Source: an uncultured Prevotellaceae bacterium | Lineage (GTDB): Bacteria > Bacteroidota > Bacteroidia > Bacteroidales > Bacteroidaceae | NCBI GenBank assembly: GCA_900320845.1 | Contig: ONTS01000001.1 | Location: 110,138 to 174,137 of the forward strand | Direction: 5' to 3' | Length of the DNA: 64,000 bases | Part shown: positions 4,539-56,146 of the stretch, one piece after another | How positions within the stretch are numbered: position 1 is the stretch's first letter | Layout of the letters: each line of letters begins with the position of its first letter | The notes under the pieces: model-generated | Seen by the model: only the letters and a program-made list of their open reading frames with translations | Told to the model about the DNA's origin: nothing | Databases searched by the model: none | Made by a program: the position numbers and the translations under genes

Positions 4539-4580
4539 GACGCAGGACAACATCAACAGTCATCGTCGTTCCGACATACG

Positions 4581-4620
4581 AAGACGCACTTTCCCGAAAT
4601 GAAGGAAAGTGCGTCTTTGT
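4581..4620 (+). terminator. intrinsic terminator after the prs operon
   Basis: A perfect 14-bp stem (AAGACGCACTTTCC at 4581-4594 against 4604-4617) with a 9-nt loop is followed by TTTGT. The nitroreductase gene ends just beyond on the other strand, and the leading AAs could serve it too, so the terminator may be bidirectional. Confidence 0.85.
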
Positions 4621-4640
4621 ATGCTATGCGGTGGTCTTGC

Positions 4641-6280: not shown

Positions 6281-6692
6281 TTGCAGTGTGACGGCTTGCC
6301 GCTGGCGGCTCCTCGTGGGCTGCGGGAGGAAAGTCCGGGCAGCATAAGGCACTCCACTGGCGAAAATACCAGTTGTCGGCGACGGCAAGTGACGATAGAA
6401 GAAAACAACCGCCTGTCCCGCAAGAGGCAGGTAAGGGTGAGAAGGTGGTGTAAGAGACCACCAGCCGCCGGGTGATCGGCGGGCTGTATCGGCTGGAGGC
6501 TGCAAGTTCATGTATACCATCGACGGAGGGCAGCCTGTCCGAGTGTAGGAGCACCCATGTGCGTCCTGCTACGATGGAGGGTAGAACGCTAAAGCCCTGG
6601 GGAGACTCATGGCGTAGATAAATGGCAAGCACCGACGGAATCCTTACGGAAACCGTCGGCACAGAACCCGGCTTACAGGTACACTGCAAGCC
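6281..6692 (+). ncRNA. rnpB: RNase P RNA (class A)
   Basis: Catalytic RNA that trims the 5' leader of pre-tRNAs. The diagnostic 5' core GAGGAAAGTCCGGGC is at about 6328, and the 3' core ACAGAACCCGGCTTACAGG is at 6661-6679. P1 can be drawn between TTGCAGTGT (6281-6289) and ACACTGCAA (6681-6689). CTTTTTT follows as the terminator. The exact ends are estimated from P1 pairing. Confidence 0.95.
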
Positions 6693-15573: not shown

Positions 15574-15634
15574 ATGATATCGTCAATTTTGGTGACCAAA
15601 ATGGAAAAGATTGATGACCAAAAATGACGATATC
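15574..15634. repeat. palindromic element A, TTGG-N3-CCAA family (expanded copy)
   Basis: The left arm ATGATATCGTCAATTTTGG (15574-15592) and centre TGA are followed by CCAAAAT, then 15 extra bases, then CCAAAAATGACGATATC (15618-15634), which completes the palindrome with one mismatch. The copy looks like the 41-bp design seen at 23859, 38918 and 55960 after a short internal duplication of TGACCAAAAT. It lies between two converging genes. Confidence 0.6.
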
Positions 15635-15725
15635 GGTCGGCAACGGCACCTGACCAGCCTTTGGCAATATGTTTGCGGTGGGGCAGATATTGCCGCTGTG
15701 TTGTAGCATGCGTGCTGTCTTCGCT

Positions 15726-19217: not shown

Positions 19218-19223
19218 CACTAG

Positions 19224-19288
19224 TGTTTTTCATAGTATTAGATTTAAGGTTAAATGAGAAGCGGAGCTTGTGAAAGTTCCGCTTTTTC
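19224..19288 (+). ncRNA. candidate small RNA with intrinsic terminator
   Basis: Between a promoter-like pair and a terminator hairpin (AAGCGGA...TCCGCTT at about 19259-19282, followed by TTTCTTTTTT) lies a short AT-rich transcript unit that includes CATAGTATTAGATTTAAGGTTAA. I recall similar leader sequences in other Bacteroidales but cannot check. No plausible reading frame is present. It could be a free small RNA or an attenuated leader. Confidence 0.45.
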
Positions 19289-19486
19289 TTTTTTCTGTCT
19301 GCTATGGCTATTCATTCGTTCTGCTTTTCGCTGTCAACACGTCGCGGTTTTCGTTGTCAAAAGTAGGCAGTGGTGCTATGCTCACCCCCTTGGTATGCCC
19401 ATCTTCTGCGGCAGTAAGCGGCTTTCAGTCTCTATCCGCTGCGGCTTGCAGACCTATGGTTGAAGCATAAATTTCGCATGTGCGTT

Positions 19487-21474: not shown

Positions 21475-21707
21475 GCATACTAAGCAACAAGATATGGAAT
21501 ACTTCTCTAATCAAAATCGCAACGCCAACAGGTTGGCTACGCAGTCGGCGATGGAAGTTTCAGTCTCTACACCATTCATGAATAAGATAATACTGCACTA
21601 TAAATATTATTAACTTCAGGCGTTGAGGTCGAGGCGCTACAGGCAAGTGAGACACTTCTCTATCCTCATTGACTCCCTCACCTCTCACCTCTTTTAAACC
21701 ATTTACT

Positions 21708-23165
21708 ATGAGCGAAATTCGTAATCTGAACCCCGAGTGCATCTGGAAGAACTTCGACGCACTCACACAGGTGCCCCGTCCGTCGGGACATCTCGAGAAA
21801 GTACAGCAGTTCCTGCTCGACTTCGCCGCCCGCGTGGGTGTAGAAGCCTTCAAGGATGACGCTGAAAACATTGTCATGCGTAAGCCAGCCACACCAGGCA
21901 TGGAGAACCGCAAGGCTGTAGTGCTGCAAGCACACATGGACATGGTGCCCCAGAAGACACCCGACTCCAACCACAACTTCGAGACCGATCCTATCCAGAC
22001 CTACATCGACGGCGACTGGGTACGCGCCCGCAACACCACCCTCGGTGCCGACAACGGCATCGGCGTAGCTGCCATCATGGCTGTCATGGAAGCAAAAGAC
22101 ATCAAACACGGCCCTATCGAAGCCCTCATCACCGCCGACGAAGAAACAGGCATGTTCGGTGCCAACGCACTCAAGTCGGGAATCCTCCACGGCGACATCC
22201 TGCTCAACCTCGACAGCGAGACATGGGGCAAGTTTGTCATCGGTAGCGCAGGCGGAATAGACATCACCGCTACCCTCGACTATAAGGAAGAAGAGACCGA
22301 TCCCGAAGATGTGGCTCTCCACTTCACCCTCCAGGGACTGAAGGGCGGACACTCTGGACTTGAGATCAACGAAGGACGCGGCAACGCCAACAAACTCATG
22401 GCACGCTTCGTCTACGACGCCATACAAAACTGTGAGGCTCGTCTGGCTAGCTGGCAGGGCGGTAACATGCGCAATGCCATACCGTTCAAGGCTGAGACAG
22501 TGCTCACCATGCCCAAAGAAAACGTCGAGGCAGTACGCGAAATGATGGAAGCCTACAAGGCCGACTTCATCGACGAGTTCAAAGGCATCGAGGAAGGCAT
22601 CGAGTTCTTCGCCGAAGAGGTGCCCGCACCCAAGGCCATCGTGCCCGAAGAGATACAGGACAACCTCATCGGAGCCATCATCTCATGCCACAACGGCGTG
22701 CTCCGCATGATTCCTGCCTATCCGCATGTGGTAGAGACATCGTCCAACCTCGCCATCATCAACATCGCAGAAGGCAAGGCCAGCATCAAGATTCTGGCAC
22801 GCTCGGCACGTGAAGACATGAAGGAATACATCACCACCACGCTCACCGCAGGCTTCAACATGGCTGGCATGAAGGTGGAGACCAGCGGAAGCTACGTCGG
22901 ATGGGATCCCAACCCCGACAGCGAAGCACTCCATCTGCTGCTCAAGGTGTACAAAGACCTCTTCGACGAAGACGGAATCATTCAGGTAGACCACGCCGGA
23001 CTGGAGTGCTCCATCATCCTGAGCAAGTATCCCGGCATGGATGTGGTATCCCTCGGTCCCACCATGAAGTCACCGCACACCACCATTGAGCGCGCATACA
23101 TTCCCACCGTGGAACCCTTCTGGCAGCTGCTGAAGAAGACACTCGAAGTGATTCCCGTGAAGTAA
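21708..23165 (+). CDS. pepD: aminoacyl-histidine dipeptidase (cytosolic non-specific dipeptidase)
   Basis: Zinc dipeptidase of family M20C, 485 residues. Metal and catalytic sites: LQAHMDMVPQ (His76, Asp78), LGADNGIGVA (Asp115), ITADEETGMFGA (Glu145 general base, Glu146 metal) and a later His near the C-terminus (KSPHTTIERAYIPTVEPFW). The lid domain (about 205-390) includes LKGGHSGLEINEGRGNANKL. I start at the ATG at 21708 (MSEIRNLNPECIWKNFD); the codons upstream show no conservation. Peptide use suits an amino-acid-fermenting or proteolytic lifestyle. A hairpin terminator follows. Confidence 0.95.
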   Translation: MSEIRNLNPECIWKNFDALTQVPRPSGHLEKVQQFLLDFAARVGVEAFKDDAENIVMRKPATPGMENRKAVVLQAHMDMVPQKTPDSNHNFETDPIQTYIDGDWVRARNTTLGADNGIGVAAIMAVMEAKDIKHGPIEALITADEETGMFGANALKSGILHGDILLNLDSETWGKFVIGSAGGIDITATLDYKEEETDPEDVALHFTLQGLKGGHSGLEINEGRGNANKLMARFVYDAIQNCEARLASWQGGNMRNAIPFKAETVLTMPKENVEAVREMMEAYKADFIDEFKGIEEGIEFFAEEVPAPKAIVPEEIQDNLIGAIISCHNGVLRMIPAYPHVVETSSNLAIINIAEGKASIKILARSAREDMKEYITTTLTAGFNMAGMKVETSGSYVGWDPNPDSEALHLLLKVYKDLFDEDGIIQVDHAGLECSIILSKYPGMDVVSLGPTMKSPHTTIERAYIPTVEPFWQLLKKTLEVIPVK

Positions 23166-23858: not shown

Positions 23859-23899
23859 GTAAAATCACTGATTTTGATTACCAATATCACTGATTTTAC
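23859..23899. repeat. palindromic element B, TTGG-N3-CCAA family
   Basis: A 41-bp imperfect palindrome: arms of 19 bp (GTAAAATCACTGATTTTGA and CCAATATCACTGATTTTAC) with three mismatches around centre TTA. On the other strand it reads nearly the same as element D at 55960-56000, with arms AAAATCAGTGAT and core ATTGGTAATCAAAAT. It sits just upstream of the HU gene promoter. Confidence 0.75.
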
Positions 23900-24009: not shown

Positions 24010-25014
24010 TTACGGAAACATTTTGCAGATGCAGTCTTTGTAGAATTGGAAGGGTTGGTGTAGCAGCTTTTCAGCTGTGATGAACAGGTTGGGTGTGTGT
24101 GTCCAGAGGAAGAGTCTGAGTCGTGACTTTGCCTTGAGTGTGCTGGTGTCGATGTATGGCAGTGCGTTGATATCTGCTTTCATGGTGCGCAGCAGTGCCA
24201 GCTTACGGCTTCGTGGCGACGACCCGCGTGCGATGCGTTTAGCTGTGCGCAGGGCTTGTTGCAGCAGGTGCGGGTCGGAAAGGGTGGTCAGCTTGTGGCT
24301 GAGATAGTAGCGGTATTTCTGTTTTTCCGACTCGTAGTAGTATGATAGTGCTTGCACATTGTCCGACTTTTTCGTTGTTGAGCTTTGGCGTTGCCTGTAG
24401 TAGTACAGCGGTTGGTGTATGACGACGGCTTGTCGGCACTTGTCGGCATACATGTAGAACTGTGCGTTGTCTTCGTAGAAGCGCGTTGTGGCGTTGTCCT
24501 GCCATATGAGTTCCTTGCGGAACACCTTGTTGCACAGGTAACTTTGTATGGTGTTGTGCAGAATGTAGCGCATGAGCTCGTCGTGGTTGATGAGGGTGTC
24601 GCTGAAGGTGTATCGATAGGGTCGGCAGGTGTTACTATACCATTTGTAGAAGGTGCATATTGCCATGTCGGCCTGCTGCTGTTCCATTGCCTGTGTGAGG
24701 CGTCGGTACATGTCGGGGGCAATCTTATCGTCGGCATCGACGAATCCTATGAGCTGTGCCTTAGCCTGTTGTAGTGCTGCGAGGCGTGCCTTGGAGGGGC
24801 CGCTGTTGTTGGTGTGTATGATGTATAGGCGGTTGTCGTTGGCGGCATATTGCTGGAGTATGGCGAGGGTGGCATCGGTGCTACCGTCGTCGACGACGAT
24901 GACCTCGATGTCGTGCAGTGTCTGATGCAGCAAGCTGTCCAGACACTCTTCAATGTATGCCTCGGCGTTGTAGGCGGGCACTATGATGGAGAGAAGAGGG
25001 ATTCTTTCTTCCAT
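24010..25014 (-). CDS. family 2 glycosyltransferase (third of three)
   Basis: 334 residues. GT-A domain: LSIIVPAYNAEAYIEECLDSLLHQ, VIVVDDGSTDATLAIL (nucleotide site), GPSKARLAAL, IGFVDADDKIAPDMYRRL with the metal-binding DADD; then a helical C-terminal part (LCNKVFRKELIW, FYEDNAQFYMYADKC) seen in EpsJ-like polysaccharide transferases. The start at 25014 overlaps the end of the upstream gene by 34 nt, so the genes are translationally linked. The acceptor is unknown. Confidence 0.88.
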   Translation of the reverse strand: MEERIPLLSIIVPAYNAEAYIEECLDSLLHQTLHDIEVIVVDDGSTDATLAILQQYAANDNRLYIIHTNNSGPSKARLAALQQAKAQLIGFVDADDKIAPDMYRRLTQAMEQQQADMAICTFYKWYSNTCRPYRYTFSDTLINHDELMRYILHNTIQSYLCNKVFRKELIWQDNATTRFYEDNAQFYMYADKCRQAVVIHQPLYYYRQRQSSTTKKSDNVQALSYYYESEKQKYRYYLSHKLTTLSDPHLLQQALRTAKRIARGSSPRSRKLALLRTMKADINALPYIDTSTLKAKSRLRLFLWTHTPNLFITAEKLLHQPFQFYKDCICKMFP

Positions 25015-25985
25015 GTCTTTTTCGTTCTGAATGGTCGGGTAAGAGCCATTACAAAGGTGTATAGGGCTGGTGATGCCCACAGCAGTCGTATGCGTTGTCG
25101 GTTTTTGGTGTTGAGTGATTGGTGCAGTGCTTGTCGTTCAGCTTTCAGTCGTTGACCGATGAGGCTGTTGTAGTGTTTTCTCTCTGCGAAGGATGTTTGG
25201 CTGGTGTTGATGCTTCGCAGCATGGTCTTGGCACAGCGAAAGAGGTTGCGTTGTGCGTCGGCAGCCCACGGCGTGTCGCTTAAGACGCGCAGACGGAAGT
25301 CTTCGGCAAGGAAACACTGGTAGAAGGAGTCAATAGTCTTGTTGTCGGGGTGAGTGATTGACGCTTCGCGTTGTCGGTAGTGGTAGAGTGTCTGCTGCAT
25401 GAATGTGGCGCAGCGGCAACGGTTAAACCATGCGGCGATGACAGCGTGGTCTTCGTAGACTATCTCCTGCGGCAGGGGCGTGGTGCACAGTGAACGACGG
25501 AACAGCTTGTTGCAGATGCTGGAGTCGATGGTGTTGTTGACGAGTAGGGGCATGATGTCGTCGTGGGAGTAGGTGCCTGGCTCCACACGCTCGGCTCGTT
25601 GCTCGCTGTGGTCAGTGTATTCGGTGTAGAATCCGCATGCCACGATGTCGGCGTCGTTGCTCTGCTGTGCCTCCAACATTGACTGCAGGAAGGTGGGTTC
25701 CACCCAGTCGTCGCTGTCGACATAGCTCATAAATTCGGCTTTGGCAGCGGCTATGCCCTTGTTGCGTGCTTCTGCCACACCTTTATGGCGGAGTCGTATG
25801 ACGCTGAAACGGCTGTCGTTAGCAGCATAGCGAGCTGCAATGTCGGCGCTGTCGTCGCTGCTTCCGTCGTCGACGAGGATGGCTTCGAAAGCCGTCTCGG
25901 TCTGTGCGAGCAGCGAGTCGAGGCACTGCGGCAGGTAGTGCGCGGTGTTGTAGATGGGTACTACTATGCTGACGAGGGGTTGCAT
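24981..25985 (-). CDS. family 2 glycosyltransferase (second of three)
   Basis: 334 residues, paralogous to its neighbours. VSIVVPIYNTAHYLPQCLDSLLAQ, AILVDDGSSDDSADIAARYA, KGVAEARNKGIAAA, FMSYVDSDDWVEPTFLQSML (metal site DSDD) and C-terminal SICNKLFRRSLC, VYEDHAVIAAWFNRC. I start at the ATG at 25985 (MQPLVSIVV); the open frame upstream overlaps the first glycosyltransferase gene and shows no homology. The three genes probably form one transcript acting on one glycan. Confidence 0.87.
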   Translation of the reverse strand: MQPLVSIVVPIYNTAHYLPQCLDSLLAQTETAFEAILVDDGSSDDSADIAARYAANDSRFSVIRLRHKGVAEARNKGIAAAKAEFMSYVDSDDWVEPTFLQSMLEAQQSNDADIVACGFYTEYTDHSEQRAERVEPGTYSHDDIMPLLVNNTIDSSICNKLFRRSLCTTPLPQEIVYEDHAVIAAWFNRCRCATFMQQTLYHYRQREASITHPDNKTIDSFYQCFLAEDFRLRVLSDTPWAADAQRNLFRCAKTMLRSINTSQTSFAERKHYNSLIGQRLKAERQALHQSLNTKNRQRIRLLWASPALYTFVMALTRPFRTKKTWKKESLFSPS

Positions 25986-38717: not shown

Positions 38718-38917
38718 GCGTACTATACAAAAACATTATGAATTCAAAAATTACTTCTTGTCAGCCCATGTCGAGGACGACAGCAGTCTTCTTACAGGTT
38801 ACGGGTGCAAAGGTAAGGGCGCAGCAAAATGTCTGCAATACCTAAAAGATGGTATTTTGCACTACAACGTTTCGGAACTCATACCCGATGGGCGACATGT
38901 TGGGGTTCTTTCATGCA

Positions 38918-38958
38918 GCAATCTCGACGACTTTGGGCACCAAAGTCGTCGAGATTGC
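38918..38958. repeat. palindromic element C, TTGG-N3-CCAA family (perfect)
   Basis: A 41-bp perfect palindrome: 19-bp arms GCAATCTCGACGACTTTGG and its exact complement around centre GCA. The arm outside the core differs completely from elements B and D, but length, centre size and the TTGG/CCAA core are the same. Confidence 0.8.
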
Positions 38959-39000
38959 ATTCCGATCAGGCTTTGTCGGCTGTCCGTTTTTTGCCTCTTC

Positions 39001-41232
39001 TTATTGCTTCTGCACCAGTGCGGCACCCTGAATGCTGCTCTCTCCTGACAGGCGCAGGGCATAGATGCCTCGTGGCAGGTGTGTCAGGCTGATGCTGTAA
39101 TCGCGCTGTTGTGCCGGCAGTAGGGCGTCAAGACATTTCATGCCCTGTGTGGTAAAGACAGTAAAGGCGAGGGGTGACTGTGTGGCATGGGGCAGACTGA
39201 TGTGCAGCGTGCCGTCGGCGTCGAGGTGCAGGCTTGCCTTCATGGGAGTGACGGGCAGCGAGGGGATGGCAGTGGTAGACAGTATGTAGAGCAGTCCAGC
39301 GTAGGCATCTATCTGTCCGTAGCCGTATTGCTGGTTGGGATATGTCAGTGCAGGGTCGTTGTGCTGCGATGTGTGTGCAATGACGTCGCGCACCTGATCG
39401 GGAGTGAGCGTGGGACAGGCCTGTAGCCACAACGCTACGACACCTGCCGCAGCCGGACAAGCCATCGAGGTGCCGGTGTTGCGGTTCCAGGCATAGGTGC
39501 GTCCGCCGTAGTCGAAGTGCTCTACGTCCTCCAGCACGTCGTGGGCGTCGGGATGTGCCTCTACATAGTAGCTGCTGTATGCGCTGATGACATTGGTGCC
39601 GGGCGCCATTACATCGGGTTTAAGCCTGCCGTCGAGGGTGGGACCTACGGAAGAGTAGTAGCTGCGCAGTCCGCCTGTGGCGTGGTCGGTCTCGCCCCAT
39701 TCGCCTTTGTAGTTGTATGCGCCTTTGCGGTAGCCTGTGGCCCCTACGCTGATGACGCTGGGAGCGCCCGAGGGGGAGTTGATGCAGTGCGTAGCTTCGC
39801 CGTCGGTGAGGCTACGGTTGATGGGATGCGGAGAGATGTAGCCCGACTGCTTGAACAGTTCGACGTCGGCATGACTGCCAACGAGTTCCACCGACAGCGG
39901 TTGGGTGATGCCTATGAGGTTGCTGTCGCTGCTGATGACGATGTCGAAGCACATATCTTCGGCATTGTAACATGAGGGATAGGCCGTTGCGGTAATAATA
40001 TGTCGTCGGTCGTCGGTGACGATGGTGTCGGTCAGTGTGGAGTCGGCAGCCTCCAGCACTCGCTCGGTGCTGAGTTGCCACAGTGTGCGGGGGCTCTCGG
40101 TTGTCGTCGCCGTGTGGTAGATGGTAAGGTCGATGCCAAAGTCTTCTTTACTCTTTGCCGTGAATGCGACGCGCTTGCCGAGGGCAAAGAGGAAGTTTCC
40201 TGCGCGTTCCCTGCCTTGTTCTTTATGTATATAGGTGGGTGCCAGTGCGTCGTTGCCTGCCGCTGCCACGAGGATGCGGCCCGGCCCGGTCAGGCTGTCG
40301 AGCACCTCGTAGTACAGCTGGTCGTCGCCGCGGAAGTCTTCGGGCGACCCTTCGCTGAACGATATCACACAAGGCTTGCCCACCGACTGCGCATAGTCGA
40401 ACATATACTTGAACCCCAGCGCATCGGTGGCATAGGTGAACTTATACAGTTGTGTGCTGTCTATGAGGTATGCGTTGTTGCTCACGGCGTTGCTCACCAC
40501 GCACAGGTCGGCATCGGGTGCCATTCCCCTCCACTGTGAGCCGTAACCTGCGCCTGCTGCTGTGCCGAGGGTGTGCGTGCCGTGCGAGAAGTTGGTGCCG
40601 TCGCGCGAGCATCCCAGTGCCAAGATGTCAGTGGGCGAAGTCCAGTCGCGACCCACATAGAGGTCGCTCGCCAGCGTATCGGCAGACAGCTGATCCCAGA
40701 AGCGCTGTATGCGGTAGCGGCTCATGTCTGAAGAGTAGAATGTCGGGTGTGTGAGGTCGAAGCCGATATCCATCACTCCTACCACGACGCCCTCGCCGGT
40801 GTACGCCTGTGGCAGGTTGGTGCCGGCCCATACGGGTCGCGTGTTGAGGTGAACGGCGCAGGTGTCGTTGTCCACGTGGGTTATGGTGTGGCTGCGATGG
40901 CTCTCTATGCGTCGCACCTGAGGCTCCAGACTCAGTGCTCCTATCGACGACAGGGGTATGTCGGCAATGTATATGGATCCAAACTGTGCGAGGTTCCTTG
41001 CGCCATAGCGTTTCAGCAGGGCAGTGCCGTCGCCGTTGATACGTATGAAAGCGGAGAGGGAGGAACGCTTGTGCCGAGTGATTGATGCTGAATGGTGTGG
41101 AATGGTTGATGGTTGGGGTGCATCTTGCGCAACGATTTCTCTCACCCACGACGACAGTTTGTCGTAGCGTGGACGCTGAGCGAACAGTGTAATGGACACA
41201 ATGAGAGCTGTGATGGTGGCGAGGCTGCGCAT
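39001..41232 (-). CDS. S8-family subtilisin-like protease with C-terminal sorting-type domain
   Basis: 743 residues. Signal peptide MRSLATITALIVSITLFAQ; a propeptide region; catalytic Asp155 (GVVVGVMDIGFDLTHP), His217 (NFSHGTHTLGTAAG), oxyanion Asn327 (VAAAGND) and Ser589 (NTGTSMACPAAAGVVALW). The protease domain carries a large insertion (about 330-490) between the oxyanion Asn and the Ser. The last 85 residues (SLHLDADGTLHISLPHATQ ... LTHLPRGIYALRLSG) look like a type IX secretion C-terminal beta domain, which suggests secretion or surface attachment. The gene stands alone, divergent from the M48 gene. Confidence 0.9.
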   Translation of the reverse strand: MRSLATITALIVSITLFAQRPRYDKLSSWVREIVAQDAPQPSTIPHHSASITRHKRSSLSAFIRINGDGTALLKRYGARNLAQFGSIYIADIPLSSIGALSLEPQVRRIESHRSHTITHVDNDTCAVHLNTRPVWAGTNLPQAYTGEGVVVGVMDIGFDLTHPTFYSSDMSRYRIQRFWDQLSADTLASDLYVGRDWTSPTDILALGCSRDGTNFSHGTHTLGTAAGAGYGSQWRGMAPDADLCVVSNAVSNNAYLIDSTQLYKFTYATDALGFKYMFDYAQSVGKPCVISFSEGSPEDFRGDDQLYYEVLDSLTGPGRILVAAAGNDALAPTYIHKEQGRERAGNFLFALGKRVAFTAKSKEDFGIDLTIYHTATTTESPRTLWQLSTERVLEAADSTLTDTIVTDDRRHIITATAYPSCYNAEDMCFDIVISSDSNLIGITQPLSVELVGSHADVELFKQSGYISPHPINRSLTDGEATHCINSPSGAPSVISVGATGYRKGAYNYKGEWGETDHATGGLRSYYSSVGPTLDGRLKPDVMAPGTNVISAYSSYYVEAHPDAHDVLEDVEHFDYGGRTYAWNRNTGTSMACPAAAGVVALWLQACPTLTPDQVRDVIAHTSQHNDPALTYPNQQYGYGQIDAYAGLLYILSTTAIPSLPVTPMKASLHLDADGTLHISLPHATQSPLAFTVFTTQGMKCLDALLPAQQRDYSISLTHLPRGIYALRLSGESSIQGAALVQKQ

Positions 41233-55559: not shown

Positions 55560-55959
55560 TTTTAAGACATAAGGACATGCTGTTTTTGACAGAAGGACAA
55601 AAGGTTTATCACACTGGCGTCAACAAATCCCCACCCTCGTAGGGGAACCAACGGTCGCTTACCGAAGGGAGATTCGCTCCCTCACAAGAAACCCACAGAG
55701 CAACAGGAGGTAAAAGCAATTATTGCTTTCTGCTAAAAGTGAAATGCGCAATAATTATCTTTCGCAACACCTTTAAACAGGCGTTGCGGTTTTATTTTCA
55801 GGACAGTCTGACTGATGTCTGACAACACGCTCTCATTCCTTGGTCTCAGCCTGTTGCCGCCCCACTTGATGTGTAATGGGTTTTACTGAGCTCCGCCATG
55901 CAGTCCGTCCGTAGTATTCCTACCGGCAGACAACATGCTGAATGTTCTCCACTTATGAT
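55560..55959. other. gene-free region, possible small RNA
   Basis: No coding sequence is convincing. Short inverted repeats occur (CCCTCGTAGGGG near 55633; GAAGGGAG/CTCCCTC near 55664-55682; AAAGCAATTATTGCTTT near 55711) before a U-tailed hairpin at 55763-55797, so a small structured RNA is possible, but I find no full promoter. The last 150 bases show nothing further. Confidence 0.35.
55763..55797 (+). terminator. intrinsic terminator of unknown transcript
   Basis: CGCAACACCT/AGGCGTTGCG (one mismatch) with loop TTAAAC and tail GTTTTATTTT. It is a second terminator about 200 bp after the nuo terminator, so it implies another transcript. Confidence 0.6.
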
Positions 55960-56000
55960 GCAAAATCAGTGATATTGGCTACCAAAATCACTGATTTTGC
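55960..56000. repeat. palindromic element D, TTGG-N3-CCAA family
   Basis: 41 bp: 19-bp arms GCAAAATCAGTGATATTGG and CCAAAATCACTGATTTTGC, one mismatch, centre CTA. It is nearly the same sequence as element B. The RHS relic begins about 15 bp after it. Confidence 0.8.
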
Positions 56001-56146
56001 TATATCAACAGTGCTTAACTACAACGGCAATCAGATTATCAAGGTTACCTATGCCGTCAGCGACGGCCCCTATTTCCAGGGAGCACGGCACTACTGCGAC
56101 AACGCCGATAAGCAGCAGGAATGTACATACGATGCCAACGGGCAAT

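Follow-up and report, generated by a model that had tools for sequence, protein, structure and literature searches.

We describe here a class of arrays, spread through the genus Prevotella though not seen in every genome sampled, in which 17-bp dyad-symmetric boxes recur with a 22-bp period. The arrays are dispersed over the genome, occur in several species as dialects that differ in box sequence, lie between convergent genes more often than the gaps they were compared with, and contain boxes that have changed more slowly than the flanking DNA. We tentatively read them, giving this a little less than an even chance, as double-stranded-DNA sites for a putative dimeric protein that would provide orientation-free marking or insulation at gene ends.

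The family was originally noticed in the window, the whole stretch of 64,000 nucleotides that was analysed, as four palindromes of 41 bp with a fixed TTGG-N3-CCAA core and changing arms, in which the pairing rather than the arm sequence was taken to be selected. The elements, as we now delimit them, and the zone expected around one of them are as follows.

15575..15635, no strand: element A, three boxes TGATATCGTCAATTTTG / CAAAATGGAAAAGATTG / CAAAAATGACGATATCG in 22-bp phase
23860..23898, no strand: element B, two boxes TAAAATCACTGATTTTG / CAATATCACTGATTTTA, linker ATTAC
38919..38957, no strand: element C, two boxes CAATCTCGACGACTTTG / CAAAGTCGTCGAGATTG, linker GGCAC
55961..55999, no strand: element D, two boxes CAAAATCAGTGATATTG / CAAAATCACTGATTTTG, linker GCTAC
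38853..39023, no strand: zone around C, approximate, in which weaker 22-bp-phased boxes are expected for three steps per side, from the family average over 50 flanks and not from copy C itself

An inverted-repeat search of the window recovered all four elements where they had been placed. Element C (38918-38958; 19-bp arms, 100% complementary, 3-nt centre) and element D (55960-56000; arms 95% complementary) are as described, and element B (23859-23899) holds its place with arms that the tool gives as 18 nt, 89% complementary, around a centre of 5 nt. Element A is likewise an inverted repeat (15576-15634, 24-nt arms, 88%), and its supposed expansion of the palindrome proves to be an array of three boxes, with linkers GTGAC and ATGAC and with outer boxes that are near reverse complements of each other. 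The core is not fixed, as element B reads TTGATTACCAA, without the TTGG half, and the 41-bp palindrome is not the unit: what repeats is a 22-bp unit made up of a near-palindrome of 17 bp and a linker of 5 bp, so that the palindrome amounts to two boxes, one linker and one extra end pair. The likeness of B and D in opposite orientation is a real match, and it arises because each box is itself nearly palindromic. Both had been placed between tandem genes; this is correct for D, and B lies between convergent genes (21669-23165 on the plus strand and 24010-25080 on the minus strand in simple gene calls), with a weak ORF overlapping it in a looser-scored calling. In element C, which has convergent genes on both sides, box 2 is the exact reverse complement of box 1, and reading of the sequence found no T run immediately 3' of it. 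Element D stands inside a longer duplicated stretch (window 55700-56060), in which about 240 bp on its left side match the left flanks of three other arrays with 86-88% identity; the related duplicated flanks are at L025:10490, L028:7718, L037:1501 and L024:9544, of which L024 shares 39 bp. The window also holds, at 4575-4623, a strong hairpin with 20-bp arms, 95% complementary, that is unlike the arrays, and Rfam places a Bacteroidetes FopS paralogous sRNA at 19223-19294 and RNase P RNA at 6283-6691.

The source genome is a 1.97-Mb Prevotella draft (G000), 86.5% complete, and throughout it the family is, as had been proposed, dispersed and mostly intergenic, with constant geometry and changing sequence, in far more than four copies. 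A check against chance frequency placed the copies above it genome-wide: a two-box pattern with up to 2 mismatches gave 98 adjacent pairs and its reversal 0, TTTTGGTNACCAAAA, at the same tolerance, gave 59 sites (25 reversed) and TTTTGGNNNCCAAAA gave 6 (0 reversed). The short core TTTGGNNNCCAAA, allowing up to 1 mismatch, showed no enrichment in the window, with 3 occurrences where shuffles averaged 1.73. Under one hairpin definition, 40 elements were found in 434 kb of the source genome, 260 kb of it picked around pattern hits, against 0 in a null of one first-order Markov simulation per stretch; on reading, 20 of these were arrays of this family and 20 were other hairpins. All source-genome stretches outside contig C43 were picked around hits.

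In this genome the box is CAAWATCASTGATWTTG, with a second type near CAAAGTCGWCGACTTTG, and the linker is often GTNAC; an array has 2 core boxes, sometimes 3 or 4, and up to 5 elsewhere. The 22-bp period is close to two helix turns. It separates CAA-N11-TTG boxes in 30 of 32 cases in the partly selected source-genome stretches and, over the 17-30 bp examined, in 148 of 151 cases among the matches listed at the named loci, which were themselves selected with a 22-bp pattern, so that figures given for them hold among those matches. At four loci (L016, L020, L031 and L001) paired arrays stand 88 bp apart, that is 4 x 22, and two weak boxes fill the space between. Some organisms have arrays of uniform size: in SRR10912539, with 17 arrays in all, each of the nine arrays among the matches listed has three boxes.

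The phasing extends beyond the core boxes. We aligned at the array edge the flanks of 29 source-genome arrays, 8 of 37 having been dropped before the counts as duplicate or near-identical (whereby locus L034/L044 was lost altogether), and counted 50 of the 58 flanks, the other 8 facing a partner array. In each step of 22 bp outward from the array, these flanks show a purine/pyrimidine signature whose positions are 1, 3, 15 and 17; of the four positions, of which 2 would be expected to agree, 3.70, 3.06 and 2.72 did so at steps 1 to 3, 2.24 and 2.28 at steps 4 and 5, and about 2 or less further out. The signal is thus clear for three steps, some 66 bp per side, which makes the whole element roughly 170-190 bp. 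The left and right flanks of the 29 arrays pair no better than shuffled partners, and a single long hairpin tipped by the palindrome was rejected on this ground. As regards the terminal inverted repeats and target-site duplication of a MITE, what was observed is this same flank complementarity, no higher than that of shuffles, and no empty site for any array. A MITE-like insertion of just under 190 bp was seen separately at L158:6741-6934 and L169:6389-6582, by comparison with L048; it has terminal repeats like GGGCTGTTCTATAAATTA and a 5-bp target duplication, CATAA, and is present in BV3P1 and SUG2085 and absent from the near relative G298.

The period was also examined by a count that avoids the selection of a dialect, namely of triples of 17-bp palindromes at each spacing from 18 to 44. 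Across 18 genomes of the genus (1.2 Mb), several of which had earlier pattern hits, there were 16, 15 and 15 triples at 22, 33 and 44 bp and 0-5 at the other spacings. The 11 genomes that had not been chosen by hit (720 kb) gave 8, 8 and 9, against a mean of 1.0 and a maximum of 3 elsewhere; six Markov simulations gave 0 triples at 22 and averaged 0.51 per spacing. The triple threshold was raised from 17 to 18 between runs, and three genomes (G015, G023 and G009) received extra stretches after a first look. Without those stretches (600 kb), threshold 18 yields 5, 5 and 4 against a mean of 0.79 and a maximum of 3, and threshold 17 yields 19, 12 and 9 against a mean of 5.1 and a maximum of 9. 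Genomes of other genera (343 kb) had 0 triples at 22, 33 and 44 under threshold 18, where the other spacings averaged 0.46, and under the looser threshold 17 had 5 at 22, within the range of 1-9 of the other spacings. At least one 22-bp triple was present in 9 of the 18 genus genomes and none in the other 9, each sampled over 40-100 kb. Among the unselected genomes, 7 of 11 lacked one in their 40-100 kb, and 7 of the 8 triples came from G099, G009 and G090.

Box letters differ by organism while the 22-bp geometry stays. A source-like pattern matched 13 of 398 genus genomes, and a broader CAA..TTG pattern 16 of 130, the source being included in both counts; the broader one had 171 places in G076, 170 in G061, 98 in the source genome, 30 in G077 and 1-8 in each of the other twelve. 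It matched none of 79 genomes from other genera of the order, one genome each (1 of 80 with the source, the sole match). The reversed pattern, meant as a control, also catches arrays of other dialects: it matched 8 of the 130 genus genomes, and the seven inspected show the 17+5 layout, among them three with unrelated boxes, some letters of which vary among copies (G133 GTTCAAGGGGCTTGAAC, G132 GTTCTAGACCCTAGAAC and G073 GTTTTAGCCTCTAAAAC). It also had one place each in G028 and G473, two of the genomes sampled from the 79 other genera, and these are possibly another dialect outside the genus or chance. A scan of contigs returned, among the matches listed, P. koreensis, Hoylesella buccalis, Prevotella sp. 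BV3P1, KH2C16, P5-50 and OH937_COT-195, together with MAGs labelled Prevotella, Prevotellaceae or Bacteroidaceae; identical loci equate G061 with BV3P1, G206 with SUG2085 and G076 with P. koreensis. Two listed contigs labelled Kiritimatiellae carry 22-bp arrays (L186:4223-4306 and L192:653-713, with CAATTTCGCTGATATTG and similar boxes), which reflect either a real presence outside Bacteroidota or misbinning. Apart from these, L259:628-855 (G137) holds a tandem repeat with a period of 41 bp that contains TTCTGCACATTTCAGAA. A phage origin was rejected, as viral contigs had no exact match of the CAA..TTG pattern and the G099 dialect matched none of 50,697 phage records at E up to 1e-3.

Along the listed part of the P. 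koreensis contig, 69 arrays are spread in a random-like manner (gap CV 0.91, from the 100 of 126 pairs among the matches listed), the largest array-free gap, among those matches, being 142 kb between positions 4 kb and 2.23 Mb of the 2.69-Mb contig. The 69 arrays leave no 250-kb bin empty, and we rejected on this ground that they are chromosome-domain marks with an excluded zone. At a single gene gap, that 3' of queC, an array stands in the source genome and also in G009, there in G009's own dialect; a queC match was obtained in 25 of 30 genomes, and the other 23 had no array at this gap at the sensitivity of the two scans used.

Gene context was assessed in the source genome with gene calls from a codon-usage script rather than a standard gene finder. 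Of 22 array loci, 8 lie between convergent genes and 1 between divergent ones, against 26 and 28 respectively of 156 background gaps of at least 100 bp, the convergent excess having p 0.04. With a looser gene score and arrays counted singly, 13 were tandem, 9 convergent, 1 divergent, 3 in weak or overlapping ORFs and 1 at an edge. At the named loci, among the matches listed, 22 arrays at a contig edge and 2 within genes were left out; of the 56 arrays that could be placed, 24 were in convergent gaps compared with 7 of 55 other gaps (p 6e-4), and 9 were in divergent gaps, not significantly fewer than the 14 of 55 other gaps (p 0.25). A Pfam scan of 20 of the 44 gene calls beside the 22 source loci returned ordinary, functionally unrelated genes.

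Four orthologous arrays in the H. buccalis group (a candidate pair, L148/L166, that the script did not align was left out) differ at 13 of 289 box positions (4.5%) and at 70 of 571 flank positions (12.3%; p 2e-4). The original prediction looked to compensatory changes at such sites, and what is seen there instead is conservation of the boxes. Linkers in the same arrays differ at 7 of 65 positions, and their comparison with boxes is not significant (p 0.07). Dyad symmetry of the boxes, helical phase and boxes slower than flanks, the features looked for in a dimeric site, are all found, with the boxes-to-linkers comparison at that same p 0.07.

Selection on pairing finds no support in neighbour orientation, in G·U counts or in the boxes of P. 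koreensis. In 36 adjacent core pairs of the source genome, counted with the duplicate arrays likewise left out, direct identity was 0.842 (expected 0.767) and inverted identity 0.845 (expected 0.762), 16 pairs being closer inverted, 13 direct and 7 tied. Ten further organisms had 6 pairs or more, those with fewer being left out, and among their pairs 92 were closer direct, 53 inverted and 6 tied. Inverted neighbours are favoured in isolate SRR1561996 (z 2.9), with SUG2085 leaning likewise (z 1.5). Overall there is no preference for inverted neighbours, and selected pairing between adjacent boxes was rejected. Among the 100 of 126 P. koreensis pairs in the matches listed, orientations were FF 24, RR 24, RF 21 and FR 8, with 23 having symmetric or unclassed boxes, which gives 48 same-direction against 29 opposite neighbours. 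Within the 169 P. koreensis boxes among the matches listed, the pair 7-11 is complementary in 12% and the pair 4-14 in 36%; since the search pattern itself fixed positions 1-3, 6, 8, 10, 12 and 15-17, only pairs 4-14, 5-13 and 7-11 are informative. In core boxes of the source genome, pairs 5-13 and 8-10 covary and 4-14 behaves in the opposite way. In 34 arrays between tandem genes, G·U was not in excess over A·C either within boxes (12 vs 11) or between them (16 vs 21), small counts among mismatches that are mostly of other types (113 within boxes, 219 between), and pairing at the RNA level was rejected on this basis. Nor do the arrays match an intrinsic terminator, a G+C-rich hairpin with conserved pairing and a U run behind it: there is no T run straight after C, and pairing is not the conserved feature. 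The pattern fits a dyad-symmetric DNA site more than a conserved hairpin; as element C forms a perfect inverted pair, individual copies may act as hairpins.

RNA hairpins at transcript ends, acting as terminators or 3' stabilisers, are on these data improbable as an account of the family. They would explain the convergent-gap bias, the perfect pairing of C, the inverted neighbours of SRR1561996 and the strong predicted folds (z -4.3 around C, z -5.9 for L016); against them stand, besides the lack of G·U excess and of a T run after C, neighbours that are more often direct overall, a P. koreensis pair 7-11 that is mostly unpaired, arrays with three or more boxes, flanks without mutual pairing and a search of five sources in which no array had an Rfam match at the gathering score. 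Still less credible, we think, is the independent origin of minisatellites by slippage in each species, with no common machinery. The tandem structure with its frequent direct copies, one long homogeneous array in G041, the occurrence of other periods such as the 41 bp of G137 and the arrays on the two Kiritimatiellae-labelled contigs are what slippage would produce; it does not account for a 22-bp period and 17+5 layout that are shared by several unrelated dialects and inconspicuous in the sampled genera outside Prevotella, for boxes slower than flanks, or for the uniform array size of SRR10912539 among the matches listed.

A more serious rival is that the arrays are selfish interspersed repeats of no use to the cell, spread by an unknown copying route, with the 22-bp geometry as a requirement of the copying enzyme, and collecting where they do least harm; we regard this as quite possible, short of an even chance. 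Dialects and copy number are species-specific, the copies around D were duplicated with long similar flanks, the queC gap is occupied in the source genome and G009 alone among 25 genomes with a queC match, and the listed P. koreensis arrays are scattered in a random-like manner; past amplification has also been proposed for the repeat PINSR by its authors (PMC4755523). The Y1 transposase family PF01797, the one searched, was not found in the source genome or in 9 of the 12 other array-bearing genomes searched (it was found in the remaining 3), viral contigs hold no exact CAA..TTG match, and related species have orthologous arrays in common, with conserved boxes; these argue against selfish spread. 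It agrees with most of the evidence notwithstanding, and may hold together with a protein that reads the arrays.

The protein reading, which we favour, draws on the period, the dyad-symmetric boxes, their slower change and the lack of a pairing signature, which together point to double-stranded DNA read by a putative dimeric protein; of the three options originally listed, namely sites for a dimeric protein, REP/MITE-like elements and RNA hairpins, the first fits best, and a REP-type Y1 transposase was not found in the source genome. Each array is built from units of 22 bp, with 17 bp in the dyad-symmetric box and 5 bp in the linker; it has 2-4 strong boxes in the source genome and weaker phased boxes at its edges. 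In our model, a dimeric DNA-binding protein would occupy the boxes as double-stranded DNA. Neighbouring boxes would then lie on one face of the helix and could be bound cooperatively, and the recognised sequence would shift among species as the geometry stays. As to use, the likeliest would be to mark or insulate gene ends irrespective of orientation, chiefly where genes converge. Several considerations weigh against this model: a binding system of about 100 sites should resist fast change of the recognised sequence, the convergent bias can also be explained by mere tolerance of insertions there, and the same side is taken by the arrays in divergent gaps, the non-significant difference between boxes and linkers, the unselected genomes without a 22-bp triple and the looser-threshold count in other genera.

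A repeat class whose geometry is kept genus-wide while its letters are replaced species by species is unusual, because sequence searches see isolated species-specific repeats only. Any protein that reads the arrays would be a new factor acting chromosome-wide in one of the major gut and oral genera. It is conceivable, but on present evidence unlikely, that a genus-wide recognition system exists in which a fast-changing protein co-evolves with tens to about 200 phased arrays per genome, the repeat PINSR being one dialect of it; were this so, it would be a bacterial counterpart of the fast-evolving pairs of satellites or centromeres and their binding proteins. If the arrays are selfish, their spread through the source genome took place with no Y1 (REP-type) transposase that could be detected there.

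The BOX elements of pneumococci resemble the Prevotella arrays in being modular, in lying between genes and in having core modules that vary in number; they differ from them in modules, host and period. Closer relatives were sought in open-licence papers, where the nearest to the 22-bp array among the matches listed were PINSR and BrickBuilt; the term Prevotell does not occur in the available text on RepRanger (PMC12306157). REP, BIME and REPIN sequences with their RAYT, as far as the available text (PMC3733652) and general knowledge describe them, share with the arrays extragenic palindromes, species-specific families and grouped copies. REP families, however, bear a GTAG or CGTC tag and are without 22-bp phasing (PMC3733652, in part from general knowledge), whereas reading of the arrays among the matches listed found no such tag at the palindrome end. 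A RAYT/REP element was rejected since PF01797 had 0 matches in the source genome, at its 86.5% completeness. The BrickBuilt MITE of Porphyromonas gingivalis is likewise dispersed and intergenic and contains a short tandem repeat, of 23 nt; according to the available text, it differs in having up to 22.8 repeats, a leader and a tail and IS5-like terminal inverted repeats, as well as in period and genus, and this different anatomy excludes it as the identity of the arrays (PMC4596501).

The G099 dialect, with elements of up to about 225 bp and six in 60 kb, brings the arrays close to a described repeat. It matched 2 of 72,556 records in the plasmid collection (E up to 1e-3), both of P. nigrescens, and one of these, NZ_CP082843.1, has 16 places, the best with 96% coverage and 77.7% identity. 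In the P. nigrescens copies, the boxes in 22-bp phase include CAAAACCTATTGTTTTG, CAAAAGCGTAGGTTTTG and TAAAAGCGGCTGTTTTG, and a spacing count over 100 kb peaks with 9 at 22, the best non-multiple of 11 having 3. The six matches in this 100 kb comprise four of 153-215 bp and two shorter ones (51 and 89 bp), and by an incomplete gene table two of them lie in tandem gaps, two in divergent gaps and one in a convergent gap, with the sixth overlapping a hypothetical gene. On reading, the source boxes CAAWATCASTGATWTTG and P. nigrescens/G099 boxes such as CAAAAGCGTAGGTTTTG do not share sequence, the 22-bp layout alone being common to them. PINSR is described, in the available text (PMC4755523), as an intergenic repeat, 188 bp long, that occurs 177-184 times per P. 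intermedia genome; a PCR test of 18 species detected it in P. nigrescens, P. falsenii and P. disiens as well. Coding sequence and terminal inverted repeats are both absent from it, and its authors suggested past amplification and left its function and source open (PMC4755523, available text). The presence in P. nigrescens, the size of about 190 bp, the many copies and the intergenic position are features that the G099 dialect alone shares with it. PINSR was presented as clade-specific, and the available text mentions no 22-bp period and no relatives in other clades (PMC4755523). The G099/P. nigrescens dialect is probably PINSR, matched by description and host rather than by consensus, and, whether the arrays are read by a protein or are selfish, PINSR becomes testable as one case of a wider class.
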